This document shows positions 4,375-34,002 of a stretch of 64,000 bases of DNA, piece after piece. Numbering within the stretch: the first letter of the stretch is position 1; every line of letters begins with the position of its first letter. The notes beneath the pieces are model-generated. The model made no database searches. It was not told where the DNA came from and worked only from the letters and a program-made list of their open reading frames with translations. The DNA is from Candidatus Krumholzibacteriia bacterium (GTDB lineage: Bacteria > Krumholzibacteriota > Krumholzibacteriia > JAJRXK01). The stretch covers positions 1 through 64,000 of the forward strand of contig DATFKK010000129.1 of NCBI GenBank assembly GCA_035268685.1. Reading direction: 5' to 3'. The position numbers were made by a program, and so were the translations under genes.

Positions 4375-4995
4375 CTACTGGTAGTTCCGCTTCAGCTGGC
4401 CCCAGGTGCGAACTTCGCCGTCGACGATCGGATCGGAGGGCTCGACCTTGCCGTTCCAGTTCTCGTCGTACCCATCGAGGGTCACCGTGGTGCTGCTGCT
4501 GATGCTGACCACGAAGGCCCAGCCGAGCTGATCGGCCGGTGCGATCTCGCCGAGACGGGTGCCACCGGTCCAGTTGACCGTGCCGGCACCGCTCTGCACC
4601 GAACCGAAGTCGACGCGGCGGAACTGATCGAAGGTCCCGGTCAGAATGGCGGTGCCGTCGCTGAAGGTCGCGGCATCGCCGAAGTCGGCGAGCGTGCCGT
4701 CGTCCTCGTAGAGGGCGATCGTGCCCCCGGCGAAATCCTGCTGGGTCCCGCTGTCGGTGATCAGCTCGAGGCCTTCGATGACCAGGGTGTAACGAGCGTT
4801 CACGTCACCGGTCAGCGGCAGCGGCGTCTCGATGGAACCATTGTTGGTGATCTTCGACACCATCGTCAGGGTTCCACCGACTCCGCCGGGCAACAGGGCC
4901 TGGCCGTTGAAGTCGAACCACTGGGACTGAGCGGTCGCGGTGCCCGGAAGCGAGATCACCAGCGCCGCGAGAGACATCAGGAGCAAGTTCTTCAT
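4375..4995 (-). CDS. Secreted protein A with C-terminal WGQLK motif
   Basis: The 206-aa protein starts at the ATG at 4995, preceded by AAGGAG. A signal peptide (MKNLLLMSLAALVISLPGTATA) leads to a beta-rich body. A central block, GGTIALYEDDGTLADF then ATFSDGTAILTGTFDQF, is clearly homologous to the downstream-coded neighbour at 5034-5702. This block resembles secreted PEP-CTERM-type proteins, but no PEP-CTERM tail is present. The C-terminus instead ends EVRTWGQLKRNYQ, a pattern shared with the proteins at 5034-5702 and 33532-34002. It lies 38 bp after the neighbour on the same strand, so co-transcription is likely. Function unknown; an extracellular or outer-surface location is inferred. Confidence 0.8.
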   Translation of the reverse strand: MKNLLLMSLAALVISLPGTATAQSQWFDFNGQALLPGGVGGTLTMVSKITNNGSIETPLPLTGDVNARYTLVIEGLELITDSGTQQDFAGGTIALYEDDGTLADFGDAATFSDGTAILTGTFDQFRRVDFGSVQSGAGTVNWTGGTRLGEIAPADQLGWAFVVSISSSTTVTLDGYDENWNGKVEPSDPIVDGEVRTWGQLKRNYQ

Positions 4996-5033
4996 CGTGT
5001 CCGTTCTCCTTGGGTCGTTCGCGAGTGTCGGGT

Positions 5034-5702
5034 CTAGTTCCGGAACAGCGACTTCACGGCGCTGAAGCTGGACTCGTCGGTGTCGACGGCGGCGTCGACC
5101 TCGAGGGTCCCGGTGATCTGCAGGTCGTAACCCTCGGGCAGTTGCGTAGCCAGCGGCTTGGTGAAGGCACCGCCGAAGGTGTAGGCGCAATCGGCCTCGT
5201 TGTCGCAGATCTGGGCCGCGGTCCCACCGACACCGTCGATGTTCCCGGTGTACCCGCCGATCCCGAATCCGTCGATGCTCAGGTTGAAGTCGGTGAACTC
5301 ACCCTCGAACAGGAGCTGGCCGTCGGTGAAGGTCGTGAGCAGGCCGTTCGGCGGGTTGGTGCCCCATTCGTGGTTCAGGACGGGGTCCTCGTAGACCTCG
5401 ATGCGCCCGCCCGTGTAGGCGATGCGCTCGATGCCGTTGTCGTCGAAGCCACCATCGCTCACCAGATCGTAGATGTAGATGGTCACTTCCTGGCTCAGCG
5501 GATCGACGCCGAAGAGCTCGTCGTACTGGTCGGCGACGGCCGTGATGACCAGAACGTCACCGGGGTCGCTGGGCGCACCGTCACCGAGGCCACCGGTCTC
5601 GTACGAGAAGCCGGAGTAGTCCATGAGGATGACGTTCTGGGCCGACGCTGGCGCGGCGACGGCGAACACGAGTGCGAATGCGAAGAGGGCATGGAGCCGC
5701 AT
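5034..5702 (-). CDS. Secreted protein B, paralogue of protein A
   Basis: The 222-aa exported protein begins MRLHALFAFALVFAVAAPASA. The ATG at 5702 is preferred over the one two codons earlier because GGAGG is then 9 nt away rather than 3. The block GGRIEVYEDPVLNHEWG followed by TTFTDGQLLFEGEFTDF aligns with the same block in protein A. Two cysteines in AAQICDNEADCAYTF could form a disulfide. The protein ends ESSFSAVKSLFRN, matching the aromatic-x-x-hydrophobic-K-x-x-aromatic pattern of protein A and the 33532-34002 product. It is the first gene of a two-gene unit. I do not recognise a function. Confidence 0.8.
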   Translation of the reverse strand: MRLHALFAFALVFAVAAPASAQNVILMDYSGFSYETGGLGDGAPSDPGDVLVITAVADQYDELFGVDPLSQEVTIYIYDLVSDGGFDDNGIERIAYTGGRIEVYEDPVLNHEWGTNPPNGLLTTFTDGQLLFEGEFTDFNLSIDGFGIGGYTGNIDGVGGTAAQICDNEADCAYTFGGAFTKPLATQLPEGYDLQITGTLEVDAAVDTDESSFSAVKSLFRN

Positions 5703-6003
5703 GGGCATGGTCCTCCGGAATGGAGTCAGGTCGTCGAGTTGTACTCTCGGACGAGCGCCGCCGCGCGAGGGAGCGCCAGCTCGAGAGAGGCGATTGCTCG
5801 GGAGCCTGAGCGGGGTTCAGGTCCGGCACCGGCGGGACGGTACGTCGACCTCCACCGGAACCGCGGGGGCAACCTAACACAGATGGGAGCCCCGCGGGAA
5901 GCCTCTCGATTCCCCGGAGTTCCCCGATCCACCGGATTCTGCCGCCGGAATCGAAGAAACGGGGAAGAGAGAGTCGAAGCCAGGTGAAGACCCGGGCCGG
6001 GCC
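5703..6003. other. Intergenic region with a degenerate palindromic repeat
   Basis: This 301-bp spacer holds no convincing gene. The segment 5905-5955 (ATTCCCCGGAGTTCCCCG, then CCGGATTCTGCCGCCGGAAT) looks like a degenerate member of the dispersed GC-rich repeat family. It shares an ATTC-CCGGAGT-CCCG core with 956-975. No promoter could be assigned with confidence. Confidence 0.4.
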
Positions 6004-7011
6004 TCAGATCCGGCCGATGAAGTGGGTCCCGCCCTGACCGTCGATCGCAGCGTGCAGGCTCGCGGGATCGGTCACCAGGGCCCGCTTCCCCCCCTGCTCG
6101 AGGAAGTCGACCACGGCGTCGATCTTCGGCCCCATGCTCCCCGACGGGAAGTGCCCCTCGGCGCGGAGCCGCTGGATCTCCTGCAGCGTGACCGCGCCGA
6201 GCGCCCGCTCCTCGGGAGTGCCGAAGCCGACGTAGACCTGTGGCACCGCGGTCAGGATGATGAACAGGTCGGCCTCGATCTCGCGCGCGAGCACGGCACT
6301 CGTGAGGTCCTTGTCGATGACCGCCTCCACGCCCTTGTAGGCACGCGTCTCGGGATCGATCACGATCGGGATTCCCCCGCCCCCACCGGCCAGCACGATG
6401 TGCCCGCGCAGCGCGCTGTCGCGGATGGTGCGGCGCTGGATCACCTTGAGCGGTTTCGGAGACGGGACGAGCCGACGCCAGCCGCGCCCGGCGTCCTCGG
6501 TGATGCTCCATCCGAGTTCGCCCTTCCGTTCCTTCGCGGTGTCTTCGTCGTAGAAGGGGCCGATGGGCTTGGTCGGATCGTTGAAGGCCGGATCGTCGAC
6601 GTCGACGACCACCTGGGTGACGACGGTCTCGACGTAGCGCTTGATCTCGCGCTGGCGCAACTGGTTCAGCAGCGCCTGCTGCAGGATGTAGCCCAGCGAT
6701 CCCTCGGTCTGGGCGACCAGCACGTCGAGGGGCATCGATGGCACCTCGGCCGTGGCCGTCTCCTGGATCAGCATGAGGTTGCCCACCTGAGGACCGTTGC
6801 CATGCGTGATCACCAGGTTGTAGCCGCGCTCGATGAGCAGCAGGAGGTGATCGCAGAGGACCTGAGCGTTGCGCTCGTGGTCCTCGATCGTTCCCGTCTC
6901 CCCCTTCTGGATGAAGGCGTGGCCGCCCACCGCGACCACCGCGGTCGGTGTCGGCACGGGATGGGGATGCGATGCGGGATGGCCGGGGGCCTGCAGGGGA
7001 TCGACGTTCAT
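6004..7011 (-). CDS. arcC: Carbamate kinase
   Basis: The 335-aa amino-acid-kinase-fold enzyme interconverts ATP plus carbamate and ADP plus carbamoyl phosphate. Recognised motifs are AVGGHAFIQKGETGT near the N-terminus, LVITHGNGPQVGNLM, the VVDVDDPAFNDPTKPIGPFY stretch specific to carbamate kinases, HIVLAGGGGGIPIV, VIDKDLTSAVLA and the SGSMGPKIDA motif near the end. Length is slightly above the usual ~310 because of an N-terminal extension of about 25 residues rich in Pro and His. No arcA, arcB or other arginine-deiminase-pathway genes are nearby, so the direction of use (ATP formation or carbamoyl-phosphate supply) cannot be told. Confidence 0.95.
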   Translation of the reverse strand: MNVDPLQAPGHPASHPHPVPTPTAVVAVGGHAFIQKGETGTIEDHERNAQVLCDHLLLLIERGYNLVITHGNGPQVGNLMLIQETATAEVPSMPLDVLVAQTEGSLGYILQQALLNQLRQREIKRYVETVVTQVVVDVDDPAFNDPTKPIGPFYDEDTAKERKGELGWSITEDAGRGWRRLVPSPKPLKVIQRRTIRDSALRGHIVLAGGGGGIPIVIDPETRAYKGVEAVIDKDLTSAVLAREIEADLFIILTAVPQVYVGFGTPEERALGAVTLQEIQRLRAEGHFPSGSMGPKIDAVVDFLEQGGKRALVTDPASLHAAIDGQGGTHFIGRI

Positions 7012-7364
7012 CGAGACCTCTTGGGGAGAGCCGGACGGAGGACGGTCGGGTCCGGCACCCTCGCGGCGCCGGAACGGGCGGAAGCCCTAAGGATCGCGCA
7101 TCCGGGCCGGGGGCGCCACGATCCGGGCGTGGCCGCGTTCCGCCCCGGAGGACGCACGGAGGCACGCCCGCCCTCGCCCCACGCAAGAGGTTCATTCCAA
7201 TACAGTTACAGCCCCGGACGAGGCCATGGACTCCTACAGCGCGGACGCATCGGAACCGAGCCCGATCGACAGGGGCATTCCGCCGCCTTTCTGCTATTTT
7301 GTGACCTCGCTGGCCGGCGATCCCACGCCGGCCGGACCACCGGATTCCGAAGAGGGGGCACCCG
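7012..7364. other. 353-bp divergent intergenic region
   Basis: The region separates arcC (minus) from nfu (plus) and presumably holds both promoters. AT-richer patches occur at ~7191-7215 and ~7288-7305 (CTGCTATTTTGTG), but no hexamer pair with acceptable spacing was found. No gene or repeat is seen. Confidence 0.35.
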
Positions 7365-7922
7365 ATGACCGACGTTCGCATGCCGGACATCCAACCCATG
7401 GGCACGCCGAACCCGCGCAGCGTGAAGTTCCTCACCGATCGCACGCTGGTCGAGGTGGGCAGCGCGGACTTCCGCACACCGCAGAGCTGCGAGCGCTCCC
7501 CCCTGGCGCGCAAGCTCTTCGACCTCGACCACGTCGAGGGCGTCTTCCTGTGCCAGAACTTCGTCACCGTCACCGCCGATCGGGACGACCAGTGGACCAC
7601 GCTGTCGCCGACGATCGTCGATGTCCTGCGCGAGCACCTGATGGCCGATGAGCCGATCCTGACCGGTGAGGTCGACGACCACGGCGGCGAGCAGGGCGAG
7701 GTCGAGACCAAGGTCAAGGAGATCCTCGACAAGCAGATCCGCCCCGCCGTGGCCATGGACGGCGGCGACATCATGTTCGTGGGCTTCCAGAACGGCGTCG
7801 TGCAGCTGAAGATGCAGGGCGCCTGCGGCGGGTGCCCCTCGAGCACGGCCACTCTGCGCCAGGGCATCGAGGCGCGACTGCGCCACTTCATTCCCCAGGT
7901 GCAGAGCGTCGAGGCCGTCTGA
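7365..7922 (+). CDS. nfu: Nfu-type iron-sulfur cluster scaffold/carrier protein
   Basis: The 185-aa protein has two domains. The N-terminal Nfu_N domain covers about residues 10-95, with TPNPRSVKFLTDR and SPLARKLFDLDHVEGVFL. The C-terminal NifU-like domain covers about 110-185, with IRPAVAMDGGDIMFVGF and the cluster-binding QGACGGCPSS (CxxC). This architecture is that of eukaryotic NFU1 and many bacterial Nfu proteins, which deliver 4Fe-4S clusters to client enzymes. NadA (27936-29075) and LutA/B (50102-52244) in this window would be possible clients, which is inference. It is the first gene of a run with the rhomboid and outer-membrane-protein genes. Confidence 0.93.
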   Translation: MTDVRMPDIQPMGTPNPRSVKFLTDRTLVEVGSADFRTPQSCERSPLARKLFDLDHVEGVFLCQNFVTVTADRDDQWTTLSPTIVDVLREHLMADEPILTGEVDDHGGEQGEVETKVKEILDKQIRPAVAMDGGDIMFVGFQNGVVQLKMQGACGGCPSSTATLRQGIEARLRHFIPQVQSVEAV

Positions 7923-7924
7923 CC

Positions 7925-8749
7925 TTGCGAGGACCCGGTTCCGTCGTCTGTCCCGAGTGCGGGCGGCTCGTCGAACTCGGCGAGTCCCGGTGCCCGAACT
8001 GCGGGCGTTGGCAACCGTCCCTGTTCGGGCTCGCCCCGATCCTGCAGCGCACCTTCGGCACGCTCGAGGTCACACAGCTGATCTTCTGGGGTTGCTGCAT
8101 CCTGTACGCCCTGTCGCTCGTGCTCGATCCAGGGGCGGTCATGCAGAGCCGGGGCTTCTTCAACATCCTGTCGCCGAGCAGCCAGGCACTGTTGCAGCTG
8201 GGGATGACCAGCGGCGGCCTCGTCGATCGCTTCGGACTGTGGTGGACGCCGCTCTCGGCCACCTACCTGCACGGCAGCCTCCTGCACATCTTCTTCAACA
8301 TGATGTGGTTGCGGATCCTGGGTCCACAGCTCGAGCACGACCTCGGTCCGGGACGCTTCTTCCTGCTGTACACTCTCGCCGGTGCCGGCGGATTCGTCGT
8401 GTCCAACACGGTCACCGGGAATCCGACCGTCGGAGCCTCCGGTGCGATCTTCGGACTGCTCGCCGCCACCATCATCCTGGCGCGACACCACGGCGGCGCC
8501 TGGGGACAGGCGGTGGGCCAACAGGCGATCATGTACGCGGTACTGCTGTTCGCCTTCGGCTTCGTCTCGCGCACCACGAACAACTGGGCACACGCCGGCG
8601 GCTTCGTGGTCGGAGGCCTGGCGATGTTCGTCCTGCTCAAGCAGAGCCAACGTGCCGAGGGTCCGCTCGTGCAACTGGGGGCGCTGGCACTGGCGCTGGC
8701 CACCGTCGGTGCTGTGATCGCCAGCTTCGTCGCCGTCCGTTTCGGGTGA
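7925..8749 (+). CDS. Rhomboid-family intramembrane protease with N-terminal zinc ribbon
   Basis: The 274-aa product starts at a TTG two bases after the nfu stop, which suggests translational coupling; there is no ATG before the conserved region. Residues ~9-25 form a small zinc ribbon (CPECG then CPNCG). About six membrane helices follow. Rhomboid hallmarks are HGSLLHIFFNMMWLRILG (His/Asn of the oxyanion side), the catalytic serine in GASGAIFG near residue 178, and the catalytic His in NWAHAGGFVVGG. The catalytic pair is therefore present. The zinc ribbon faces the cytosol if the fold is standard. Substrates unknown. Confidence 0.88.
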   Translation: MRGPGSVVCPECGRLVELGESRCPNCGRWQPSLFGLAPILQRTFGTLEVTQLIFWGCCILYALSLVLDPGAVMQSRGFFNILSPSSQALLQLGMTSGGLVDRFGLWWTPLSATYLHGSLLHIFFNMMWLRILGPQLEHDLGPGRFFLLYTLAGAGGFVVSNTVTGNPTVGASGAIFGLLAATIILARHHGGAWGQAVGQQAIMYAVLLFAFGFVSRTTNNWAHAGGFVVGGLAMFVLLKQSQRAEGPLVQLGALALALATVGAVIASFVAVRFG

Positions 8750-8760
8750 GGAGGACCGCC

Positions 8761-9510
8761 ATGACGCGATGGATCACGACTCTCGCGCTGCTGACCGTCG
8801 CCACGATCGCCACTGCCCAGGACGTCCCGCGCTTCGAGTTCGAACTCGAGGGGGCCGCCGTCTGGCAGTCGAAGAACGACGTCCAGATCCCCAACGACGC
8901 CTCGGCCACGCGTTTCTCGCTGGTCGACCTGGTGGGCAACGGACCGGTGGCGGCGGGCAGGCTGACGTTGCGTTGGAACCTGAGCGACCGTCATCAGCTC
9001 CACGCGCTCGGCGCGCCGCTGCAGCTGGTGGAGTCGGGCACGCCGGACACCGGGATCTCCTTCGCCGGAGAGACCTTCGCCGCGGGGCGGGAGGCCGAGG
9101 CCACCTACCGGTTCAACTCGTGGCGCATCGGCTACCGCTACCGCCTGGTGTCGGGCCCACGTGGCGACGCCTGGATCGGTTTCACCGCCAAGCTGCGCGA
9201 TGCCGAGGTGAAGCTGGAACAGGACGGGCTGAGTGCGAACGACACCGACCTCGGCTTCGTCCCGCTGCTGCACCTCGCCGGCCGACGCTTCTTCACCGAC
9301 ACCTTCAGTGGCTCGCTCGAGGTCGAGGCCCTGGGTGGCGGGCCGGGAAGAGCGATCGACGGTGCCGCAACGCTGCGCTACGGCCGTCGACACGGCTGGG
9401 GTGTGAGCGTGGGCTACCGCACCATCGAGGGTGGGGCCGACGTCGATGCGGTCTACAACTTCGCCTGGTTGCACTTCGCGGTCGTGGCCGTCGACGTGCC
9501 GTTGCGTTGA
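8761..9510 (+). CDS. Predicted outer-membrane beta-barrel protein
   Basis: The 249-aa protein starts at an ATG behind GAGGAGG, 11 bp after the rhomboid gene. It has a clear signal peptide (ending ATIATAQ) and alternating polar/hydrophobic strands such as FEFELEGAAVWQSKND, WRIGYRYRLVSGPRGDAWIGF and HGWGVSVGYRTIEGG. The C-terminus finishes WLHFAVVAVDVPLR, like the closing strand of a small barrel. No family is recognised. It may be an eight- to ten-stranded OMP; position in the nfu-rhomboid run suggests co-transcription but gives no functional link. Confidence 0.65.
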   Translation: MTRWITTLALLTVATIATAQDVPRFEFELEGAAVWQSKNDVQIPNDASATRFSLVDLVGNGPVAAGRLTLRWNLSDRHQLHALGAPLQLVESGTPDTGISFAGETFAAGREAEATYRFNSWRIGYRYRLVSGPRGDAWIGFTAKLRDAEVKLEQDGLSANDTDLGFVPLLHLAGRRFFTDTFSGSLEVEALGGGPGRAIDGAATLRYGRRHGWGVSVGYRTIEGGADVDAVYNFAWLHFAVVAVDVPLR

Positions 9511-9529
9511 CGCAAGGTCGGAGTGGGCC

Positions 9530-9559
9530 CCTGGCTCGTTCTTCGAAGAACGAGCCAGG
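9530..9559. terminator. Perfect 30-bp palindrome, bidirectional terminator-like
   Basis: The stretch is a perfect 30-bp palindrome (arms CCTGGCTCGTTCTTC). It lies between the convergent OMP gene (ends 9510) and typA (ends 9610). As RNA it would need an opened centre of four bases. No U-tract follows. Confidence 0.55.
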
Positions 9560-9572
9560 CTCGAGCTCCCAT

Positions 9573-9596
9573 GACACGAACCCCTCGGTTCGTGTC
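9573..9596. terminator. Second hairpin before the typA 3' end
   Basis: The arms GACACGAAC and GTTCGTGTC with a 6-nt loop (CCCTCG) sit directly between the convergent genes. With the adjacent 30-bp palindrome this probably ends transcription from both sides. Confidence 0.55.
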
Positions 9597-9609
9597 GTGC
9601 GGGACAACA

Positions 9610-11439
9610 CTAGGGGCTCGTGCCCAGCTTCCGCCGCTTCGCCGCCTGCCGGCGGGCGTTCTCGTCGAGCAGGGTCTTGCGCAGGCGCATGTGGTTCGGG
9701 GTGACCTCGACCAGCTCGTCGTGATCGACGTACTCGAGCGCCTCTTCGAGCGACATCTTCACCGGCGGGGCGATCCGAAGCTTCCGGTCGCTGCCGGCGG
9801 CGCGCATGTTCGTGAGCTGCTTCGCCTTCTGGGCGTTCACGACCAGGTCCTCGTCCTTGTTCGACTCGCCGATGACCTGACCGGTGTAGAGCTCGTCGCC
9901 CGACTCCACGAAGAACACGCCGCGGTCCTGCAACGCATCGAGCGCGTAGGCGTTCGCCGGCCCCTTGGCCATGCTCACGATACTGCCCGTCTGCCGCTCG
10001 GGGATGCTTCCCTTGAAGAACTCGTACTCGTAGAAGCGGTGGTGCAGCACGACCTCGCCGCCGGTCGCCTGCAGCATGCGGCTGCGGAACCCGATGAGGC
10101 CGCGACTCGGAATGTGGAACTCGATGCGCGTCCGCCCGTCCCCCGGCTGCATGTCGACCATCTCGCCCCGACGCGATCCGGCGTATTCGATCACCGTGCC
10201 CGCCAGGTCGGACGGCACGTCCACGGTGAGCACCTCGACCGGCTCGGCCTTGCGGCCGCCGATCTCCCGGTAGATCACCTGCGGCTGGCCGACCATGAAC
10301 TCGAAGCCCTCGCGCCGCATGGTCTCCATGAGAATGGAGATGTGCAGGATGCCGCGGCCACTGACCTCGAACTGGTCGGCCGTGCGTCCGTCGCGCACGC
10401 GGAGGGCGACGTCCCGCTCGGCCTCGCGCTGGAGCCGCTCCCGCAGCTGCCGGCTGGTGACGTACTTGCCATCCTGTCCGTAGAAGGGACTGTCGTTCAC
10501 CATGAACGTCATGCTCAACGTGGGCTCGTCGACGGCGATGATCGGGAGCGGTTCGGGCCGCTCGACGTCGGCCAGCGTGTCGCCGATGTCCACGTCGTCG
10601 AGACCCACGACCGCACAGATGTCGCCGCAGTCCACCCCCTCGACCTCACGCCGGCCCAGGTTGTCGAACACGAACAGCTGTTTGACCTGCGTGTTCACGC
10701 GGCTGCCGTCGCGCTTGAGCAGCACCACCCGGTCGCGCACCGAAAGGGAGCCACGCACGATGCGACCCACCCCGATACGGCCGAGGAAATTGCTGTGATC
10801 CATGGCGGCCACCAGCATCTGCAACGGTCCGTCCTCCACCGCGGGAGCCGGAACGACCTGCACGATCCGGTCGAGCAGAGGTCCGAGATCCTCGCGGACG
10901 TCGTCGAGCTCCGTGGCGGCCCAACCGTCGCGCCCGCTCGCGTACACGACTGCGAAGTCGAGCTGTTCGTCGGTGGCGTCCAGTTGGGTGAACAGGTCGA
11001 AGACCTCGTCGAGCACCTCGTGCGGACGCGCGTGCGGGCGGTCGACCTTGTTGATCACCACCAGCGGCGTCAGGCCCAGGTGCAGCGCCTTCTGCAGGAC
11101 GAAGCGGGTCTGCGGCATCGGGCCCTCGAAGGCGTCGACCAGCAGCAGTACTCCGTCGGCCATCTTCAGCACCCGCTCGACCTCGCCCCCGAAGTCGGCG
11201 TGACCGGGGGTGTCGATCAGGTTGATCCGGGTCTCGCCGCCACCGTGGGCGTAGGTGACCGCGAAGTTCTTCGAGGTGATGGTGATCCCGCGCTCGCGTT
11301 CGAGGTCGCCGGAGTCCATCACGCGCTCCTGCACGACCTGGTGATCGCGGAAGGCATGGCACTGGCGCAGGATCTGGTCGACCAGGGTCGTCTTGCCGTG
11401 GTCGACGTGCGCGATGATCGCGACGTTGCGGATGTCCAA
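9610..11439 (-). CDS. typA: Ribosome-associated translational GTPase TypA/BipA
   Basis: The 609-aa protein has TypA's usual length when started at the TTG at 11439, directly before [22 protein letters not shown] lies about 9 nt upstream, and longer readings only add Arg-rich sequence. The GTPase domain shows G1 AHVDHGKTT (residues 10-18), the switch region [12 protein letters not shown]3 [15 protein letters not shown] and G4 NKVDRP. It is followed by the elongation-factor domains and the TypA-specific C-terminus ([33 protein letters not shown]). The protein binds the ribosome under stress and assists 50S assembly. The gene stands alone, convergent with the OMP gene. Confidence 0.97.
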
Positions 11440-11650
11440 GATCGGAGGCCTCGGCCGGAGAGAACGGAATCGGGAGCGGCACGTTAGGTGGGCCGGGGCC
11501 CCGGCGCCAGACGCCGAGACCCCGGAGGCTTCCCCCCGGGGTCTCGCGTCGCGATCGAGGGCGAGCCGAGCCACCCTCCGGTCGAGGTTCCGCGATCCGC
11601 CGCAGCGGCCGATCGAATCCAGCCGCCGCAGCGAACGCCGGAACCGGTTC

Positions 11651-12244
11651 CTACTTTCCCGCCTCGGCCTTGGCCGCGGCGATGTCGATCTGGATCTCGA
11701 CCTCGTCACCGAGCACCACGCCGCCCTGGTCGAGGTTCTGGTTCCAGACGATGCCGAAGTCCTTGCGATCAATGGTCACGGTGCCGCTGAACCCGGCCTT
11801 GGTGTTCCCCCACGGGTCGGTGGCGGTGCCGTGGAACTCGAAGGGGATCTCCACCGGTTGGGTCACACCGTGCATGGTCAGGTTGCCGTGCAGGACGTAG
11901 TTGTCGCCGTCCATCTCCACCTTCGTGCTCTCGAAGGTCAGGGTCGGGTAGGTCTCCACGTCGAAGAAGTCGGCGCTGCGCAGGTGCTCGTCGCGCTTCT
12001 CGTCACGCGTGTCGATGCTGGCCGCCTGGATCTCGATGTTCACCGAGCCCTTCGTCAGGTCGTCACCGGCCTCGATGGTGCCGCTCCAGTCGGTGAACTG
12101 CCCGCCGGTCTTGCTGAGCATGTGACGGATCTTGAAGCTGAGCGTCGAATGGGTCGTGTCGATCTGCCAGGTCGCCGCGGTGGCCTGGCCGGCCAGCATG
12201 ACGACGAGGGCGAGGGCGCCGAAGGTCGACAGGATCTTCTTCAT
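11651..12244 (-). CDS. yceI: YceI-family periplasmic lipocalin-like protein
   Basis: The 197-aa exported protein has a signal peptide (MKKILSTFGALALVVMLAGQATA). The YceI domain follows directly with WQIDTTHSTLSFKIRHM, the SADFFDVETYPTLTFES motif, HGNLTMHGVTQPVEIPFEF and DFGIVWNQNLDQGG. YceI proteins bind isoprenoid-type lipids in a beta-barrel; the exact ligand here is unknown. The ATG at 12244 follows GAGGAA. A well-formed promoter with an overlapping palindrome lies about 125 bp upstream, so expression is probably repressor-controlled. Confidence 0.93.
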   Translation of the reverse strand: MKKILSTFGALALVVMLAGQATAATWQIDTTHSTLSFKIRHMLSKTGGQFTDWSGTIEAGDDLTKGSVNIEIQAASIDTRDEKRDEHLRSADFFDVETYPTLTFESTKVEMDGDNYVLHGNLTMHGVTQPVEIPFEFHGTATDPWGNTKAGFSGTVTIDRKDFGIVWNQNLDQGGVVLGDEVEIQIDIAAAKAEAGK

Positions 12245-25473: not shown

Positions 25474-26997
25474 TCAGAGATGGCGCCGCACCCAGCCCGA
25501 CAACTGGAACAGGGCCATCAGCGACGGCCAGGTCTTCTGCAGCGCCGCCGGCCGGTCGAGCTGCCGGTCGATCACCCCGCGCACCGCACCACTCCACAGC
25601 GGACACTGCGTGATCTCGTGTTCCACCCAGCGGCGATGCTGCGTGAGGAAGCGCGGGCCGTCGAACTGGAAGGTGCGCTTGCCGATCCGCGCGTCGTCGT
25701 AGCCCACGCGTTCTCGCAGCAGCTGCCGGAGCAGGACCTTGTTCACCAGTCGCTCGCGGTCGAAGCGGCTGGCTTCGGGCAAGTGGAACCAGAAATCGAT
25801 CAGATCGCGGTCGACGAAGGGGAACAGGGCGCGCGTGCCGGTGATCTCGGCCGCCACGTAGGCCTTCACCACCATCGCGTTCTGATCGGCGTGCCGGCCA
25901 CGGACCTCCGACCGGAAGTCGAAATCGTCGAGGTCGCGCCGCGCGCGGCTCTCGCGCGCCCACTCGGCGTGGGTGTCGATCGAGCCGTCGAAGAAGCGCT
26001 TGGTGTCGGTGTGGCGCAGCCAGCGCCCGCCGAAGAAGTGCCACTCCGCCCGCGTGCGCAGCGCCGCGCTCAGGGGATGCTCGGGCGGGAACATCCCGCG
26101 GAACGGCCGCAGCCACGCCAGCCACCGGTCGGCGATCCGCGAGTTGCGGTGCTCGGCCGCCGACGGCACGTAGCCGATCCACGAGTCGTTGTTCAGACCG
26201 TCGATCAGTCCCTCGCCCGGCTGCATGCCCGCGCGCGCCACCCCGAGCAGGTAGGGAACGAGCGTCGGATCCCCGCAGGGCTCGGTGGCGTGCTCGAAAC
26301 AGCGCGTGACGATCGGTTCGATCTCCGTGCGGTCGTCGGGCAGGACCACCGTCTCGTGCGGCACGCCCAGTTGCTTCGCGAAGGCCGCCGCGTCGACTGC
26401 CTCGTCCTCGTCGGGCTCCGAGGCGAAGGTGATCGCCCGCACGTCGTCGCGCCCCGCCTCGCGACAGGCCAGGGCCAGGGCCACCGAGTCCTTCCCCGAG
26501 CTGAGCATGAGCACCGACGAGCGATCACCGAGCCAGCGCTGGACGGCCCCGACGAGCAGTTCGAGCAGGCGGTCGGTCGAGGGGACCCGGTCCTCGCGGC
26601 TGCGCGCGTTGCGGAAGATCGGCTCGTACGTGAAGGACGCTTCGAAGGTCTCGCCGCGGCGCGTCACGCGGAGCCGGTCGCCGAAGCCGAGCCGGGCGAC
26701 GTCGACGTGGACGGTGCCCGGCGCCGGGACGAAACCGTGGTGCAGGAAGTGCGAGAGGGCGCGGTCGGAGAGCGCGGGATCGAGCCCGGCGAGCAGCGCC
26801 CTCGGGTCACGGCTCATCCGGCAGCGGCCGGGCCGCAGGTCGGCGAAGAGACGGCCGAGACCGGGATCGACGGTCAGGGTGTCGGTCTCGGCGCCGGTGA
26901 CGGCGTCGCGCAGGTCGTCGGGCAGGGCCGCGCCCGCGCTCCAGTCGAAGACCTGGTCCTTGTCGGACTGCACACCCGGCCTCCTGTTCCGCGGCAT
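25474..26997 (-). CDS. Asparagine-synthase-like ATP pyrophosphatase without glutaminase Cys
   Basis: The 507-aa product (ATG at 26997) carries an asparagine synthase C-terminal domain with the PP-loop LMLSSGKDSVALALA near residue 195. Further family features are AITFASEPDEDEAVDAAAFA, GLNNDSWIG and LFPFVDRDLIDFWFHLP. The N-terminal ~150 residues look like a shortened glutaminase-fold remnant. There is no Cys2, so glutamine hydrolysis in cis is not expected. Such proteins often amidate or cyclise unusual substrates (surface polysaccharide, peptide or natural-product pathways). No partner gene is next to it. It is convergent with the propeller-phosphatase gene. Confidence 0.82.
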   Translation of the reverse strand: MPRNRRPGVQSDKDQVFDWSAGAALPDDLRDAVTGAETDTLTVDPGLGRLFADLRPGRCRMSRDPRALLAGLDPALSDRALSHFLHHGFVPAPGTVHVDVARLGFGDRLRVTRRGETFEASFTYEPIFRNARSREDRVPSTDRLLELLVGAVQRWLGDRSSVLMLSSGKDSVALALACREAGRDDVRAITFASEPDEDEAVDAAAFAKQLGVPHETVVLPDDRTEIEPIVTRCFEHATEPCGDPTLVPYLLGVARAGMQPGEGLIDGLNNDSWIGYVPSAAEHRNSRIADRWLAWLRPFRGMFPPEHPLSAALRTRAEWHFFGGRWLRHTDTKRFFDGSIDTHAEWARESRARRDLDDFDFRSEVRGRHADQNAMVVKAYVAAEITGTRALFPFVDRDLIDFWFHLPEASRFDRERLVNKVLLRQLLRERVGYDDARIGKRTFQFDGPRFLTQHRRWVEHEITQCPLWSGAVRGVIDRQLDRPAALQKTWPSLMALFQLSGWVRRHL

Positions 26998-27105
26998 CGG
27001 CGACCCGTTCGCCGGATCCGGCGGCGGAGTATCGCAGGGTGCCCGGCGGGCGACCAGGGCGGATCCGTGGGCGGCGGTCGGCGGTCGGACCCGGGGCATT
27101 CCCCC

Positions 27106-27134
27106 TTGCCTTCGTGTCCTTCTCACACTATTCG
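27106..27134 (+). promoter_or_regulatory. Predicted promoter of nrtR-nadA
   Basis: TTGCCT (27106-27111) and TATTCG (27129-27134) are 17 bp apart. The -10 match is weak, but a perfect palindrome (27122-27140) covers it, as expected for an autoregulated promoter. Confidence 0.45.
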
Positions 27135-27140
27135 TGTGAG
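27122..27140. promoter_or_regulatory. Candidate NrtR operator
   Basis: CTCACAC-N5-GTGTGAG is a perfect 19-bp inverted repeat lying 55 bp before the nrtR start. A 9-bp piece of it (ATTCGTGTG, 27131-27139) recurs in inverted form at 27172-27180, giving a possible second half-site. Binding by NrtR is inferred from position. Confidence 0.6.
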
Positions 27141-27194
27141 GCGCCGATTAAGTGTCGGCTGCACACGAATCCTGGTCCCCCTCGGAACACGCCC

Positions 27195-27908
27195 GTGCCC
27201 CACACCGTCCGCCAGCCGAGCCGCCGCAGCCGGCCCCTGCCGGATCTGCCCGTGACCGTGGACACGGTGATCTTCACCGTGCTCGACGCCACGTTGCAGG
27301 TGCTGCTCGTGCGCCGGGGCGAGGACGCGTTCGAGGGCCTGTGGTCGCTGCCGGGCGGCTTCGTCGAGCCGAGCGAACCGCTCGAGGCAGCGGCGCTGCG
27401 CGAGCTGCGCGACGCCACCGGCGTGACCGACGTGTACCTCGAGCAGCTCTACACCTTCGGCGATCCCGGCCGCGACACCCGCGGCCGCGTGATCAGCGTG
27501 GCCTACGTCGCCCTTCTCGACGCCGACCGCTGCCCGCTGGTCCCCAACGAACTCGAGGCCGAGGCCCGTTGGTGGCCGGTGTACGAGCTGCCGCCGCTGG
27601 CCTTCGACCACCCGCGCATGATCGAGGTCGCGCTGGCCCGTGTGCGCACCAAGCTCGAGTACACCACCATCGGTTTCCAGCTCATGCCCCACGACTTCAC
27701 GCTGGGCGAGCTGCAGCGCGTGTACGAGGTCGTGCTCGACCGTCCGATCGACAAACGCAACTTCCGCCGGCGGCTCAAGCTGCTCGAGCTGGTCGAGGAG
27801 ACCGGCGAGATGCGCAGCGAAGGACCCGGCCGTCCGGCCGCACTCCATCGCTTCCATCACGTGGACTTCGTCCATCTGCGCGATCGCGGCTTCCACTCGC
27901 CGTTCTGA
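27195..27908 (+). CDS. nrtR: NrtR-type Nudix-domain transcriptional regulator of NAD metabolism
   Basis: The 237-aa protein has an N-terminal Nudix fold (VTVDTVIFTVLDATLQVLLV; GGFVEPSEPLEAAALRELRD) and a C-terminal winged helix (MPHDFTLGELQRVYEVVL, DKRNFRRRLKLLELVEETGE). The Nudix box REUxEExG is degenerate here (RELRDATG, with the catalytic Glu pair replaced by Asp-Ala). That fits NrtR proteins that sense ADP-ribose rather than hydrolyse it. nadA follows after 27 bp, supporting a role as repressor of NAD synthesis. The start is uncertain: GTG 27195 is used, but GTG 27253 is also possible. Confidence 0.88.
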   Translation: MPHTVRQPSRRSRPLPDLPVTVDTVIFTVLDATLQVLLVRRGEDAFEGLWSLPGGFVEPSEPLEAAALRELRDATGVTDVYLEQLYTFGDPGRDTRGRVISVAYVALLDADRCPLVPNELEAEARWWPVYELPPLAFDHPRMIEVALARVRTKLEYTTIGFQLMPHDFTLGELQRVYEVVLDRPIDKRNFRRRLKLLELVEETGEMRSEGPGRPAALHRFHHVDFVHLRDRGFHSPF

Positions 27909-27935
27909 ACCCGCCCCTCCGAACCGAGGCCCGTC

Positions 27936-29075
27936 ATGAGCACCCGCACCTGGACCCCGCTGCCCGAAGAGATCACGTCGCTGTCCCCCGACGCGATGCA
28001 GGAACGCATCGCCGCGGCGAAACGCGAACTCGGCAACGACGTGGTCCTCCTCGGCCACCACTACCAGGCCGACGACGTGATCCGTCACGCCGACGCCACC
28101 GGCGACAGCTTCAAGCTGGCCCAGCACGCCCAGGCCCAGACCCAGGCGAAGTACGTAGTCTTCTGCGGCGTGCACTTCATGGCCGAGAGCGCCGACATCC
28201 TCACCGGCGACGACGTGACCGTGGTCCTGCCCGACATGGGCGCCGGGTGTTCGATGGCCGACATGGCCGACGTGGTCGACGTCGAGGAGGCGTGGGACAT
28301 CCTCGCCGAGATGGGCGTGCGCGACATCGTGCCGATCACCTACATGAACTCGACGGCGGCCATCAAGGACTTCTGCGGGCGCAACGGCGGTATCGTGTGC
28401 ACCAGCAGCAATGCCGAGAAGGTCCTGCGCTGGGCCTTCGAGCGCGGCGAGCGGGTGATGTTCTTCCCCGACCAGCACCTCGGCCGCAACACCGGCTACT
28501 CCATGGGCATCGACCTCGAGCAGATGCCCCTGTGGAATCCCCACGCCGTCGACGGCGGCGCGACGCCCGAGCATTACCTGGACTCGAAGATCATCCTGTG
28601 GAAGGGCCACTGCTCCGTGCACCAGAAGTTCGACGTGACCAACGTCTGGACCCTGCGCGAGGCCGATCCCGACATCCAGATCCTGGTGCATCCCGAGTGC
28701 AACTTCGAGGTCGTGCAGAACGCCGACCTCGTCGGCAGCACCGAGTTCATCATCGAGCAGGTGGAGAACGCGTCCGCGGGTTCGAAGTGGGCGATCGGTA
28801 CCGAGTTCCACCTCGTGAACCGCCTGGCCGAACAACACCCCGAGCAGCAGATCACCTCGTTGAGCGGCATCCAGTGCGCCTGCGCGACCATGTACCGCAT
28901 CGACCCGCCCCACCTGCTGTGGGCCCTCGAGAGCCTGGTTCGTGGCGAGGTCGTCAACCCGATCCGCGTGCCGCGCGACGTCACCGAAGGCGCGACGGTG
29001 GCGCTGGAGCGGATGCTGGCCCTGAAGGGCGACGGCGCGGTCGGACAGCGGCGGGCTCGAGCCCATGTGGGATGA
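27936..29075 (+). CDS. nadA: Quinolinate synthase
   Basis: The 379-aa enzyme condenses iminoaspartate with dihydroxyacetone phosphate to form quinolinate, the NAD ring precursor. It needs a 4Fe-4S cluster. The three cluster-ligand regions are visible: VVFCGVHFMAES (Cys77), WKGHCSVHQKF (Cys226) and IQCACATMYRI (Cys314/316). Other conserved parts are LLGHHYQADDVIRHADATGDS, TYMNSTAAIKDFCGRNGG, FFPDQHLGRNTG and HPECNFEVV. The length fits the longer NadA subgroup. It is the second gene of the nrtR-nadA operon; nadB and nadC are not in the window. Confidence 0.96.
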   Translation: MSTRTWTPLPEEITSLSPDAMQERIAAAKRELGNDVVLLGHHYQADDVIRHADATGDSFKLAQHAQAQTQAKYVVFCGVHFMAESADILTGDDVTVVLPDMGAGCSMADMADVVDVEEAWDILAEMGVRDIVPITYMNSTAAIKDFCGRNGGIVCTSSNAEKVLRWAFERGERVMFFPDQHLGRNTGYSMGIDLEQMPLWNPHAVDGGATPEHYLDSKIILWKGHCSVHQKFDVTNVWTLREADPDIQILVHPECNFEVVQNADLVGSTEFIIEQVENASAGSKWAIGTEFHLVNRLAEQHPEQQITSLSGIQCACATMYRIDPPHLLWALESLVRGEVVNPIRVPRDVTEGATVALERMLALKGDGAVGQRRARAHVG

Positions 29076-29153
29076 CCGGCCACGGAGTCATTCCCACGCC
29101 GTGCCCGGGTGGAGTTGCCTGTCCGCGTCACTGTTCTCTGCTATCCTCGTCCG

Positions 29154-30800
29154 ATGATCACGCTGAACGACATCTCGAAACAGTACGGCCGGCAGATCCT
29201 CTTCGTGGAGACGTCGGTCCAGATCAACTCCGGAGAGAAGGTCGGACTCGTCGGACCGAACGGCGCGGGGAAGTCCACCGTCTTCCGGATGATCGTCGGC
29301 GACGAGTCCCCCGACGAAGGCACGGTGTCCGTGCCCAGGCGCACGACGATCGCCTACTTCCGGCAGGATGCGAGCGAGGCCTCCGGGCGCAGCGTCCTCG
29401 ACGAGGCCATCGCCGGTGCCGGACGGGTCGGTGAACTGCACCACGAACTCGCGGCACTCCAGGAGACCATGGCCGACCCCGCGCGCGCCGACGAGATGGA
29501 CGGGTCGCTCGCGCGCTACGGGGAGATCCTCGACGAGTACCAGCACGGCGGAGGCTACGAACTCGAGTCCATGGCGCGCGAGGTCCTCCAGGGTCTGGGC
29601 TTCGACGACGACCAGATCGACGGCCCGGTCGACACGCTCTCCGGCGGTTGGAAGATGCGCGTGGCGATCGCCCGCGTCCTGTTGGCCCGGCCCGAGGTCC
29701 TCCTGCTCGACGAGCCGACGAACCATCTCGACATCGAGTCGATCCTCTGGCTCGAGAAGTTCATCCGGGATTACCCGGGGACCGTGGTCATGACCTGCCA
29801 CGACAAGGACTTCATGAACCGCGTGGTGACGAGGATCGTCGACATCGACGGGGGCGAGTTCGTCTCGTACGCCGGCAACTACGACACGTACGTGGAGCAA
29901 CGAGCCCTGGCCGACGCCAATCGCGAGGCCGCGCACGCCCGCCAGCAGGCGATGCTGGCGAAGGAACGCCGGTTCATCGATCGATTCTCGACCCACGCGG
30001 CCAAGGCGTCGCAGGTCCAGAGCCGGGTGAAGAAGCTCGAGAAGATCGAGACCGTCGAGCCACCACGCACGCGACGCGTGGTCCGCTTCGAGTTCCGCGA
30101 GCCGCCCCGCTCCGGCGAGGATGTCGCCGTGCTCGAGGGTGTGGGCAAGGCCTACGGTGCCCGGGTGATCTACGAGGACTTCGACCTGGTGGTCCGGCGC
30201 CGCGAACGATGGTGCGTGATGGGACGAAACGGGGCCGGCAAGACCACTTTGCTGAAGCTCGTCGCCGGCGCAGCGGATCCCGACGGCGGCAGCGTGCGCC
30301 TGGGCCCGTCGGTGAAGATGGGCTACTTCGCACAGCAATCGGTCGACCTGCTCGATCCGACGCTGACCGTCTTCGAAGCCGCGCAGCAGGCCTTCCCGGC
30401 CGAGGGGCAGGGGGCACTGCGTACGCTGTTGGGTGCGTTCCACTTCATCGGCGAGGACGTCGACAAGCCCACGCGGATCCTCTCGGGGGGTGAGAAGACG
30501 CGCCTGATCCTGGCCCTGATGCTGTTCGACCCGCCCAACTTCCTCGTACTCGACGAGCCCACGAACCACCTGGATCTCGAGACCAAGGAAATGCTCGTCG
30601 AGGCGCTGTCGGACTTCGAGGGAACGATGCTCTTCGTGAGCCACGACCGCACCTTCCTGCGCGGTCTGAGCAACCGCGTGCTCGAACTCCGTCCCGGCGA
30701 CGGCAACGGCACGCCGGCGGAGCCGCCGCGCGTCTTCGACGGGTCGTACGGCGAATTCGTGGTCGCGACGGGAGACGAAGCGCCGGGCGTGCACGGTTGA
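29154..30800 (+). CDS. ABC-F family ATPase
   Basis: The 548-aa cytosolic protein has two ABC ATPase domains and no membrane helices. Domain 1 has Walker A GPNGAGKS, signature LSGGWKMR and Walker B LLLDEPTNHLD; domain 2 has Walker A GRNGAGKT, signature LSGGEKTR and FLVLDEPTNHLD. The linker between them (~240-320, KKLEKIETVEPPRTRRV) is the Uup/EttA-type P-site-tRNA interaction motif region. ABC-F proteins act on ribosomes in translation control or antibiotic protection; which role applies here is open. The ATG at 29154 is chosen because MITLNDISKQYG is the natural domain start. Confidence 0.93.
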   Translation: MITLNDISKQYGRQILFVETSVQINSGEKVGLVGPNGAGKSTVFRMIVGDESPDEGTVSVPRRTTIAYFRQDASEASGRSVLDEAIAGAGRVGELHHELAALQETMADPARADEMDGSLARYGEILDEYQHGGGYELESMAREVLQGLGFDDDQIDGPVDTLSGGWKMRVAIARVLLARPEVLLLDEPTNHLDIESILWLEKFIRDYPGTVVMTCHDKDFMNRVVTRIVDIDGGEFVSYAGNYDTYVEQRALADANREAAHARQQAMLAKERRFIDRFSTHAAKASQVQSRVKKLEKIETVEPPRTRRVVRFEFREPPRSGEDVAVLEGVGKAYGARVIYEDFDLVVRRRERWCVMGRNGAGKTTLLKLVAGAADPDGGSVRLGPSVKMGYFAQQSVDLLDPTLTVFEAAQQAFPAEGQGALRTLLGAFHFIGEDVDKPTRILSGGEKTRLILALMLFDPPNFLVLDEPTNHLDLETKEMLVEALSDFEGTMLFVSHDRTFLRGLSNRVLELRPGDGNGTPAEPPRVFDGSYGEFVVATGDEAPGVHG

Positions 30801-30905
30801 CGGGCGTCGGAGCGGGTACACGAGGGCTTCCGGCAGTTCGCCCGTAGCGGTGACACGGCCCTGGGATCCCCCGCAGACGGCAACGTCTGTGGCCTTCGCG
30901 ACTCT

Positions 30906-30938
30906 GCGCGAGGTCCTCGCGCCTCATCTTCCCGTTTT
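30906..30938 (+). terminator. Intrinsic-terminator-like hairpin
   Basis: The arms GCGCGAG and CTCGCGC with a 3-nt loop (30906-30922) are followed by a T-rich tail (CTCATCTTCCCGTTTT). A smaller hairpin CAGACG-GCAA-CGTCTG with a GNRA loop sits just upstream at 30874-30889. The pair could terminate abc-F transcription or act as a leader/attenuator of the transporter gene at 31007. Confidence 0.5.
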
Positions 30939-31006
30939 CCCCCTGTCCCCCCCGAAGCACCTGTGGCAGCCTCGTCGGGTTCCACGACCCCGAACCGAAC
31001 CACGCC

Positions 31007-33508
31007 ATGCCACGCGACCAGAAGTCCGGACTCGGCACCTTCGCCGGTGTGTTCACGCCGAGCATCCTCACCATCCTCGGCATCATCCTGTTCCTCCGCG
31101 TGGGCTACGTGGTCGGCAACGCGGGTCTGGGCAACACGCTGCTGATCATCGCGATCGCGAACGTGATCACGATCCTCACCAGCTTCTCGTTGGCCACCAT
31201 CGCCACGAACCTGCGGGTGAAGAGCGGCGGGGACTACTACCTGATCTCGCGCACGCTCGGTGTGGAGTTCGGCGGCGCGCTCGGCATCGTGCTCTTCGCG
31301 GCCCAGGCGATCTCGATCGCCTTCTACACGATCGGTTTCTCCGAGGCGGTCACGACCGTCGTGGGGCTGGAGTCCGCCTGGGCGGCGCAGCTCGTGGCCG
31401 CGGGTGCTGTTCTCGCGTTGTTCGTCCTGGCGTGGGTGGGCGCCGACGCGGCCACCACCTTCCAGTACGGCGTGATGACCGTGCTCGGGCTGGCCCTCGT
31501 CACGTTCTTCGTCGGCGGCCTGGGCGACTTCGACCCGCGGTTGGCGCGCGACAACTGGGTGGTGAGCAGCGATCAGCCCTTCTGGCTGTTGTTCGCGATC
31601 TTCTTTCCCGCCGTCACGGGATTCACGCAGGGCGTGAGCATGTCGGGCGACCTGGCCGACTCGTCGCGCAGCCTGCCGCGGGGGACCTTCGCCGCGGTGG
31701 GTCTGTCGATCGTCGTCTACCTGGCGACGGCGGTCGTCTTCGCGGGGGCGATGCCGGCGAGCGAACTGGCCTCGGACACCGGCGCCATGCGGCGGGTGTC
31801 GATCCTTCCCTGGCTGGTCGACGCCGGAGTGATCGCCGCGACGCTGTCGTCGGCGCTGGCGTCGTTCCTGGGCGCCCCGCGCATCCTGCAGTCGCTCGCC
31901 CGCGACCGCGTGTTCCCGGTGCTGAATCCCTTCGCCGCCGGTCACGGTCCGAGCGAGAACCCGCGGCGCGGCGTGCTCCTGGCCCTGGTCATCGCGCTGG
32001 TCACCGTGGCGCTGGGCAACCTGAACGTGATCGCGCCGCTGGTATCGATGTTCTTCCTCGTGTCCTACGGACTGCTGAACTTCGCGACCTACTACGAGGC
32101 CAGCGCGGGCAGCCCGTCGTTCCGGCCGACCTTCCGGTTCAGCCATCCGCGCATCGGCCTGGCCGGGGCGATCGCCTGCGGCGCCGTCATGCTGGCGATC
32201 GACCCCGTGGCGGCGGCGGTGGCGGGAGCGATCCTCTTCGGGATCCTGCAGTACGTCCGGCGATCGACCACGGTGACGCGCTGGGCCGACAGCAGCCGGT
32301 CGGCGCGGCTGCGTTCGATCCGCGAGAACCTCCACGGTCTGAGCGCCCAGCCCGAGCACCCGCGGGACTGGCGGCCGGTGATCCTGGCCTTCTCCGAACA
32401 GTCGGAACGTCGCGTGGCCCTGCTGCGCTTCGCGGGGTGGATCGACGGTCGGAGCGGCTTCACCACCGCCGTCCAGATCCTGGACGACGAAACCGGCCCG
32501 GCGACGCGTGGACGCATCCACGAGGTCGAGGAGCAGCTCCGCAGCGACATCGCCACTGCCGACGTGCCCGCCTTCGCGCGCTGCGTCGACACCGACCCGA
32601 GCGCCAGCGCGCTTCCGACACTGTTGCGTGCACACGGCCTGGGGACGATCCGCGCCAACACCGTCCTGGTGAATCGCCTCGACGACGGGGCCGACGACCC
32701 CGACCGCGCGCGGGCGTTCGCGCGCCGGTTGCGGACCGCGCTGCGATCCGAGTGCCACCTGGTGGTCCTCGACGCCACGCGTGAGGAGATCGACGCGCTC
32801 GACGAGGCCCCGATCGACCAGCGCCGCATCGACGTCTGGACCGAACGCGACGCGACCGGCCGTCTGTGCCTGCTGCTCGCCTACTTGACCACGCGCACGC
32901 CCGACTGGAAGGACGCCACCATCCGCCTGATCGCGACCCGGCACGGTTCGCGGCGCGCGCGCGAGCGGCTCGAGGAGCAGTTGCGCACCATGCTCGAGGA
33001 GGTCCGCATCGACGCCGAGGTCGTGATCGTCGACGACGAACCGATCGACGCCGTTTCGGGCAATGCCTCGCTCGTGTTCCTGCCCATGCGGCTGCACGGC
33101 GACCGCGCCGTGGGCCCGACGGGTCGTTCCTTCGCCGAGGCTGGCCGAGGTCTGGCGGTGGTGGCCTTCTGCATGGCCGCCCAGGACCTCGAGCTCGACG
33201 CCGAACCCGAGGAGGGCGAGGCCGCCGAGATCGCCGCGGCGGTCGATCGCGCCGAGGAGGCCGAGCGCGAGGCGGAACAGGCCCGCGAACGCGCCGACGC
33301 GGCCGAGGAGGAACTCGCATCCCACGGCGGCGACGAGCCGGGCGACGACCAGCTCCGACGAAAGGCGAAGAAGGCGCGCTCCGAGGCCGAGCGGGCAACC
33401 GAACACGCACGCCACGCTCGGGCGCAGGCCGACGAGATGGCGCCGGAACATCGAGCCGCGGACGAGGACGAGGACCGGAGCGAGCGGAGCGACTCCACGC
33501 ACCCTTGA
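31007..33508 (+). CDS. Cation-chloride-cotransporter-like APC-superfamily permease
   Basis: The 833-aa protein starts GTFAGVFTPSILTILGIILFLRVGYVVG, the signature opening of SLC12-type cation-chloride cotransporters (NKCC/KCC relatives). About twelve helices extend to residue ~420, including FPAVTGFTQGVSMSGDL and ASFLGAPRILQSLARD, both diagnostic. A soluble C-terminal domain (~430-720) follows, and then a very charged Glu/Ala/Arg coiled-coil-like tail to the end (EEAEREAEQARERADAAEEE). Bacterial members are poorly characterised; the transported ions cannot be stated. A hairpin/terminator-like leader precedes it. Confidence 0.88.
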   Translation: MPRDQKSGLGTFAGVFTPSILTILGIILFLRVGYVVGNAGLGNTLLIIAIANVITILTSFSLATIATNLRVKSGGDYYLISRTLGVEFGGALGIVLFAAQAISIAFYTIGFSEAVTTVVGLESAWAAQLVAAGAVLALFVLAWVGADAATTFQYGVMTVLGLALVTFFVGGLGDFDPRLARDNWVVSSDQPFWLLFAIFFPAVTGFTQGVSMSGDLADSSRSLPRGTFAAVGLSIVVYLATAVVFAGAMPASELASDTGAMRRVSILPWLVDAGVIAATLSSALASFLGAPRILQSLARDRVFPVLNPFAAGHGPSENPRRGVLLALVIALVTVALGNLNVIAPLVSMFFLVSYGLLNFATYYEASAGSPSFRPTFRFSHPRIGLAGAIACGAVMLAIDPVAAAVAGAILFGILQYVRRSTTVTRWADSSRSARLRSIRENLHGLSAQPEHPRDWRPVILAFSEQSERRVALLRFAGWIDGRSGFTTAVQILDDETGPATRGRIHEVEEQLRSDIATADVPAFARCVDTDPSASALPTLLRAHGLGTIRANTVLVNRLDDGADDPDRARAFARRLRTALRSECHLVVLDATREEIDALDEAPIDQRRIDVWTERDATGRLCLLLAYLTTRTPDWKDATIRLIATRHGSRRARERLEEQLRTMLEEVRIDAEVVIVDDEPIDAVSGNASLVFLPMRLHGDRAVGPTGRSFAEAGRGLAVVAFCMAAQDLELDAEPEEGEAAEIAAAVDRAEEAEREAEQARERADAAEEELASHGGDEPGDDQLRRKAKKARSEAERATEHARHARAQADEMAPEHRAADEDEDRSERSDSTHP

Positions 33509-33531
33509 TCCCGCCACGACCCCGACCCCGA

Positions 33532-34002
33532 TCAGAACCGTGCCTTCACCGCTCCCCACGTGACCGATGTGCCCGGCACGGATTGATCGATCTGCATCAG
33601 CACGATCACGCGCGTGACGACGCCGTCGGCGTCGGTGACCTGGACGACGAAGTTCGGCACTCCCTGGAGGAACTGCCTCACGTCGGAACAGGTCTCCGTG
33701 CCGTCGTACGACGTCTCCGGGATCGACCAGCCCGGATCGTCCTCGTCGGCGAAGTCCACGACGTGCCAGCCGTAGCGCATGGTCGCGAGCGGAGCGGCGG
33801 TCTCGGCGGCGGTCCAGCAGTATTCGACCGGAGTGCCCGCGAGAACGACGATCCGCAGGAGGACGTCCGAGCCCACGCTCGTGGTCTCGGGAATGCCGGT
33901 GCCGCTCACGGTCAGGGCCGGACCGACATCGGCGACCGCGGGAGCGGCGCAGAACAGGATGAGAGCGGCGGCAAGAGCGAACGAGCAGAGGGCGTGGCGC
34001 AT
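33532..34002 (-). CDS. Small secreted protein with C-terminal WGAVK motif
   Basis: The 156-aa protein starts at the ATG at 34002 (MRHALCSFALAAALILFCAAPAVA, signal peptide). The mature part, about 130 residues, is beta-rich with Cys residues in VEYCWTAAE and TETCSDVRQ that may pair. The sequence closes with TSVTWGAVKARF. This tail matches those of the secreted proteins at 4375-4995 and 5034-5702, although the bodies are not obviously similar. No function is recognised. Confidence 0.7.
   Translation of the reverse strand: MRHALCSFALAAALILFCAAPAVADVGPALTVSGTGIPETTSVGSDVLLRIVVLAGTPVEYCWTAAETAAPLATMRYGWHVVDFADEDDPGWSIPETSYDGTETCSDVRQFLQGVPNFVVQVTDADGVVTRVIVLMQIDQSVPGTSVTWGAVKARF

Follow-up and report, generated by a model that had tools for sequence, protein, structure and literature searches.

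The window, i.e. the whole stretch of 64,000 nucleotides that was analysed, carries on its reverse strand three genes for secreted proteins which share a short C-terminal tail; their features are listed in Table 1, together with those of a second locus of the same genome, described below. Each of the three genes starts with ATG and is preceded by a purine-rich stretch resembling a ribosome-binding site. A Sec signal peptide is found at the start of each, and the C-termini read TWGQLKRNYQ in protein 1, SSFSAVKSLFRN in protein 2 and VTWGAVKARF in protein 3, as stated by the initial annotation, which had described three exported proteins with these endings.

Table 1. Tailed proteins of the window and tail genes adjoining the peptidase gene C25-2 in the same genome. 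Signal peptide cleavage sites are readings of the sequence.
Feature	Position	Strand	Remarks
Secreted tail protein 1	4375..4995	-	206 aa; beta-sandwich body; weak floc_PepA similarity
Tail motif WGQLKRNY of protein 1	4381..4404	-	stop one residue further
Sec signal peptide of protein 1	4930..4995	-	MKNLLLMSLAALVISLPGTATA, cleaved before Q
Secreted tail protein 2	5034..5702	-	222 aa; weak homologue of protein 1
Variant tail motif FSAVKSLF of protein 2	5043..5066	-	stop two residues further
Sec signal peptide of protein 2	5640..5702	-	MRLHALFAFALVFAVAAPASA, cleaved before Q
Secreted tail protein 3	33532..34002	-	156 aa; stand-alone domain
Tail motif WGAVKARF of protein 3	33535..33558	-	stop directly after
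Sec signal peptide of protein 3	33931..34002	-	MRHALCSFALAAALILFCAAPAVA, cleaved before D
Tail genes at C25-2 locus, contig C135	L153:8421-9002, 9166-9774, 10185-10841		
C25-2, contig C135	L153:10939-15228		

A weak homology links proteins 1 and 2 (E 3e-5 when the two sequences were compared with each other; a joint alignment was also made), and the pair of their genes recurs at three other loci (L008, L016, L077), in this genome and in a relative. Protein 3, which had been described as not obviously related to the first two apart from the tail, showed no relationship to protein 1 when the sequences were compared. None of the three proteins matches a Pfam family; the one NCBIfam similarity of protein 1, to the PEP-CTERM protein PepA in its body, stays below the threshold, and a fold search with the predicted model of protein 1 gave no significant match. 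The F-S form found in protein 2 is a variant of the same tail, because homologues of the protein 2 body carry the tails SWGGVKSTFQR, SFGAIKGRYGN, SWGNVKSLYGER and SWGYVKSFFGEDN.

The 4.6 Mb genome from which the window derives was searched with a DNA pattern encoding W-G-x-[VILM]-K-x-x-[FY], using the same pattern backwards as a control. The motif was found 23 times and the reversed pattern once. By reading the surrounding DNA, 22 of the 23 matches were seen to end open reading frames which have a signal-peptide-like start, with the stop codon 0-4 residues further on; the last one (L021) sits within a 28-aa fragment. The motif is present in all 80 genomes of a set from the phylum, comprising one class, 8 families and 43 genera, with 1 to 66 matches per genome, against 0 to 4 for the control. 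From 109 distinct tails the consensus P-[VI]-x-[TV]-E-x-x-[ST]-[WF]-G-x-[VI]-K-[SAG]-[LR]-[FY]-x(0-5)-stop was established, roughly 15 residues long. In 93 of these 109 tails, the invariant Lys is followed by Ser, Ala or Gly, and 68 of the 109 extend 1-5 residues beyond the aromatic residue. Since the codons vary and the residues remain constant, selection appears to act on the protein level. Genus g36 has nearly no W-G matches; at its loci of the peptidase gene C25-2, described below, W-S, W-T, L-S or L-T replace W-G (L167, L168, L200), which suggests that the motif drifts by genus.

Tails were also scored by a profile in 1262 gene models, taken from fetched DNA, with signal peptides called by a simple hydrophobicity rule and not by SignalP. 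Tails of at least 18 bits end 156 of 631 signal-peptide proteins and 7 of 631 proteins without one; part of the scored set had served to train the profile and the sampled regions were partly chosen for their tails, so that 156/631 is not a genome frequency. The 7 tailed genes without a signal peptide are contig-edge, masked or mis-started, and not one of the 237,084 internal windows of the same gene models reached 18 bits. The initial annotation had proposed that a common tail on different secreted proteins suggests a sorting or attachment signal, to be recognised by its enrichment at C-termini in the same genome and by its restriction to signal-peptide proteins, and to be refuted if the enrichment were missing or if protein 3 were homologous to the first two along its whole length. 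Both the enrichment and the restriction were observed, protein 3 is not homologous to protein 1, and the proposal is thus supported.

By the same simple rule, a Sec signal peptide was called in 101 of 104 tail proteins. Gln follows the AxA site in 19 of the 77 tail proteins with such a site (104 examined), which we take to recall the Q-rule of Bacteroidetes. A tail-like stretch, ATWGRIKHVF or ATWGRVKAAF, was also seen deep inside two lipoproteins (L239, L240; genomes G019, G015).

At an E-value of 0.001, 89 tail proteins match 21 Pfam families; the bodies under the tails include beta-helix, Calx-beta, LTD (Lamin Tail Domain), CBM20, malectin, PPC and cytochrome c7 domains. Choice-of-anchor F, X and Z, fibro-slime, XDD4, GlyGly-CTERM and PEP-CTERM proteins are among the NCBIfam matches. 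The tailed bodies, diverse and joined by the tail alone, are of kinds known elsewhere with varied C-terminal anchors. Their median length is about 198 residues, compared to 1327 for proteins with ends resembling the C-terminal domains (CTDs) of the type IX secretion system (T9SS).

The same body may carry different anchors. LTD proteins of about 210 residues bear the tail, or a variant of it, in 18 of 20 sampled genomes, and LTD proteins of at least 550 residues show a T9SS CTD-like end wherever the C-terminus is readable, which is the case for some only, the longer loci being often cut by the locus edge; one LTD protein of 516 aa is tailed. The domain of protein 3, when standing alone, is tailed in five of six cases (own genome, G022, G052, G055, G070), the sixth (G059) having a degraded tail, and when contained within proteins of about 770-890 residues it is untailed in all six cases read. 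Five of these six large proteins, two of them in the own genome, carry a lipobox; no signal peptide was found in the sixth. More generally, tails end 2 of 45 lipoproteins, called by a simple lipobox rule, versus 154 of 586 other signal-peptide proteins (Fisher p-value 0.0005). One of the two, L063:9401-10033, is a clear lipoprotein and yet tailed, an exception to the rule; the other, L065:12574-13458, is a doubtful lipoprotein call. The tail, therefore, swaps with known surface anchors, namely the T9SS CTD on LTD proteins and the lipid anchor on the protein 3 domain.

Structures predicted by AlphaFold are available for two unrelated families. In a tail protein with a cohesin fold, most of the body reaches pLDDT values above 90, and the tail has values of 56-59, with a helix at residues 196-202. 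For protein 1 of the window, whose body is unrelated to the cohesin-fold family, the model shows a beta-sandwich whose end is disordered (pLDDT 31-35), the motif being covered by a helix at 199-203. Because a flexible tail with a short helix is seen in both models, the tail is predicted to be, in either family, an appended peptide lying outside the fold.

The initial annotation had recommended to look for a co-occurring membrane protease or secretion gene family. A candidate reader of the tail is a second C25 peptidase besides PorU, here called C25-2, whose gene lies directly downstream of tail genes. Its roughly 1400 residues comprise a propeptide of gingipain type, a C25 domain and a T9SS CTD of FlgD type. 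It belongs to peptidase family C25, as indicated by the match to PF01364 and by the catalytic His and Cys, conserved in all 23 C25-2 proteins. In the tree, C25-2 forms one clade apart from PorU with a support of 100, and its scores against the PorU model NF033707 (146 bits for the best piece in the own genome, 177 for L064) are well below the curated cut-off of 420. A PorU homologue is present in all 80 genomes, and the C25-2 profile matches 76 of them, a few matches being partial or possibly PorU. A tandem pair of full-length PorU homologues was seen in one genome (G034:C121:57837-66184).

At 52 of the 57 loci that include 600 bases or more upstream of C25-2, this gene is directly preceded, on the same strand, by one to several tail genes; three loci (L064, L070, L072) had been located via their tails, and leaving these out gives 49 of 54. 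No tail gene adjoins any of 20 PorU loci, and canonical PorU was discarded as the neighbour of tail genes. The difference has a Fisher p-value of 4e-14, which overstates independence, the genomes being related. Five C25-2 loci have no upstream tails: those of both f2 genomes and of both g14 genomes, although one of these genomes (G015) has 66 tail matches, and a broken gene (L214), where the 5' half of C25-2 is in another frame and the upstream side is not visible. A conserved order of cohesin-fold tail proteins, C25-2 and MurQ was noted (L153:8400-15228, L064, L070, L072).

The tail proteins adjoining C25-2 are all one homologous family, and their fold is that of cohesins (Foldseek E 3e-5). 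The 52 cases are not independent, the neighbourhood going back largely to a single inherited association, and the link to C25-2 could concern cohesins instead of the tail, because every tail protein beside C25-2 is of this family. Dockerin-like genes occur near the C25-2 locus in several genomes. A dockerin-cohesin account of the whole system was rejected: dockerin_GC gives just one weak match in the own genome.

Other secretion and sorting systems of the phylum were surveyed in the 80 genomes. The T9SS translocon SprA (TIGR04189) is found in all of them; its gene is regularly flanked, in conserved order, by an M28-family peptidase gene and by LptF/LptG-like genes (L091-L102). Type A CTDs are abundant, from 14 to more than 62 per genome. 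The number of CTDs was rejected as a predictor of the number of tails: in g36, CTDs are numerous and WG matches scarce, but this genus uses the W-S, W-T and L variants. Exosortase, a third, patchy sorting system within the phylum, occurs in 28 genomes, mostly of f3, f4 and f7 and none of f5, and sortase in 8. Both are absent from the own genome, and from 52 and 72 of the 80 genomes, respectively, and they were discarded as readers of the tail.

Taken together, the tail is somewhat probably a surface-sorting signal for small Sec-exported proteins, read and cut by C25-2, the protein being then presumably fixed at the cell surface. The wider proposal, that across the phylum a second surface-sorting pathway stands beside T9SS, made of a helical tag of about 15 residues and a dedicated C25 transpeptidase, and serving mainly small secreted proteins, is judged to have about even chances. 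Recognition and cleavage of the tail by C25-2, surface attachment and the route through the outer membrane are steps that we infer, as follows. After export by Sec, the folded body would bear a flexible linker and a small amphipathic helix, with W, V/I and F/Y on one face. The tail would be recognised and cut at the cell surface by C25-2, a PorU paralogue itself equipped with a T9SS-type CTD, which would probably fix the protein to the surface, as PorU does for CTD cargo; the outer membrane would be crossed probably via T9SS. Cleavage between the invariant Lys and the following Ser, Ala or Gly may be guessed because of the prevalence of these three residues in the tails, of the specificity of Lys-gingipain, which cuts after Lys and which we take to be a relative of C25-2, and of a preference of PorU. 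For PorU, the preferred residues following the cleavage site are Gly, Ala or Ser (PMC11969387).

A real sorting or retention signal could also be read by another factor, such as PorV, an outer-membrane receptor not yet described or an S-layer, with C25-2 merely a neighbour of cohesin genes. This explanation, which we hold to be possible though rather doubtful, draws on the tail genes elsewhere in the genomes, beside which no recurrent machinery was found, on the f2 and g14 genomes, where C25-2 is without nearby tails, and on the single cohesin-fold family adjoining C25-2; it is opposed by the fact that C25-2 is the only gene found linked to tail genes across six families, that its catalytic pair is intact, and that the known T9SS sortase is a member of its peptidase family. 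Since the linked gene encodes a peptidase, and hydrophobic C-termini can activate periplasmic proteases, the tail might instead be a recognition peptide for degradation or protease-linked quality control, and not for anchoring; this appears improbable, a destruction tag being hard to reconcile with dozens of tailed secreted proteins, in which the tail replaces a T9SS CTD or a lipid anchor. Even less credible is a BAM beta-signal for the insertion of outer-membrane beta-barrels, suggested by the F or Y in or close to the last position: residues follow this aromatic position in most of the 109 tails, the bodies are soluble cohesin, LTD, beta-helix and CBM-type folds, and the models show a flexible helix, not a strand, for the tail. 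A product of chance or composition, conceivable for so short a motif, is practically dismissed by the counts over the controls in the own genome and in the 80 genomes, by the C-terminal position wherever it was read and by the empty internal windows.

By means of the tag, which is short enough for direct testing, dozens of proteins labelled 'hypothetical' can already be annotated in each genome. If the reading by C25-2 is true, it would provide a readable address label for the surface proteome of an uncharacterised phylum, along with the name of the probable reading enzyme, and a T9SS-type sortase family would be able to serve a minimal peptide tag in place of a folded domain.

No Pfam or NCBIfam model matches the tail, PDB sequences are hit only at E about 0.5, and no description of it was found in the open-access literature. 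With exosortase missing from the own genome as well, the earlier view that the tail is neither PEP-CTERM nor a known T9SS domain is borne out. The closest parallel is the T9SS type A CTD (TIGR04183, PF18962) with PorU: a C-terminal signal on Sec-exported proteins, linked to a C25 peptidase, present in the same genomes and interchangeable with the tail on LTD bodies. The tail proteins also share two features with T9SS cargo, a Sec signal peptide and the presence of SprA in the genome. The CTD, however, is a beta-sandwich of 70-80 residues, whereas the tail has about 15 and is modelled with a short helix; the C25 clade differs, no motif is in common, the number of tails does not track that of CTDs, and TIGR04183 is not among the families matched by the 89 tailed proteins. 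Prevotella intermedia has short T9SS CTDs of 40-55 residues, forming a three-stranded sheet with motifs B, D and E (PMC11969387). These resemble the tail as shortened C-terminal signals of T9SS cargo, but have no W-G-x-[VI]-K helix and are longer. PEP-CTERM/exosortase and LPXTG/sortase similarly rely on short sorting signals at the C-termini of exported proteins that are unrelated to one another; unlike the tail, these signals have their own transmembrane helix and a basic end, and neither LPXTG nor a hydrophobic helix was found in the 109 tails. On the enzyme side, C25-2 shares with the gingipains Kgp and RgpB the propeptide type, the C25 fold, the His-Cys pair and the T9SS-type CTD, but its best overall match is PorU and it adjoins tailed cohesin-fold genes. 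The cohesin fold of these tailed proteins, with a dockerin-like gene nearby (below the curated cut-off), recalls the surface-anchored cohesins of cellulosomes; the anchor here, however, would be the tail and not LPXTG. The tail is concluded to be a real, undescribed sorting signal, which works like the known C-terminal ones and belongs to none of those tested.
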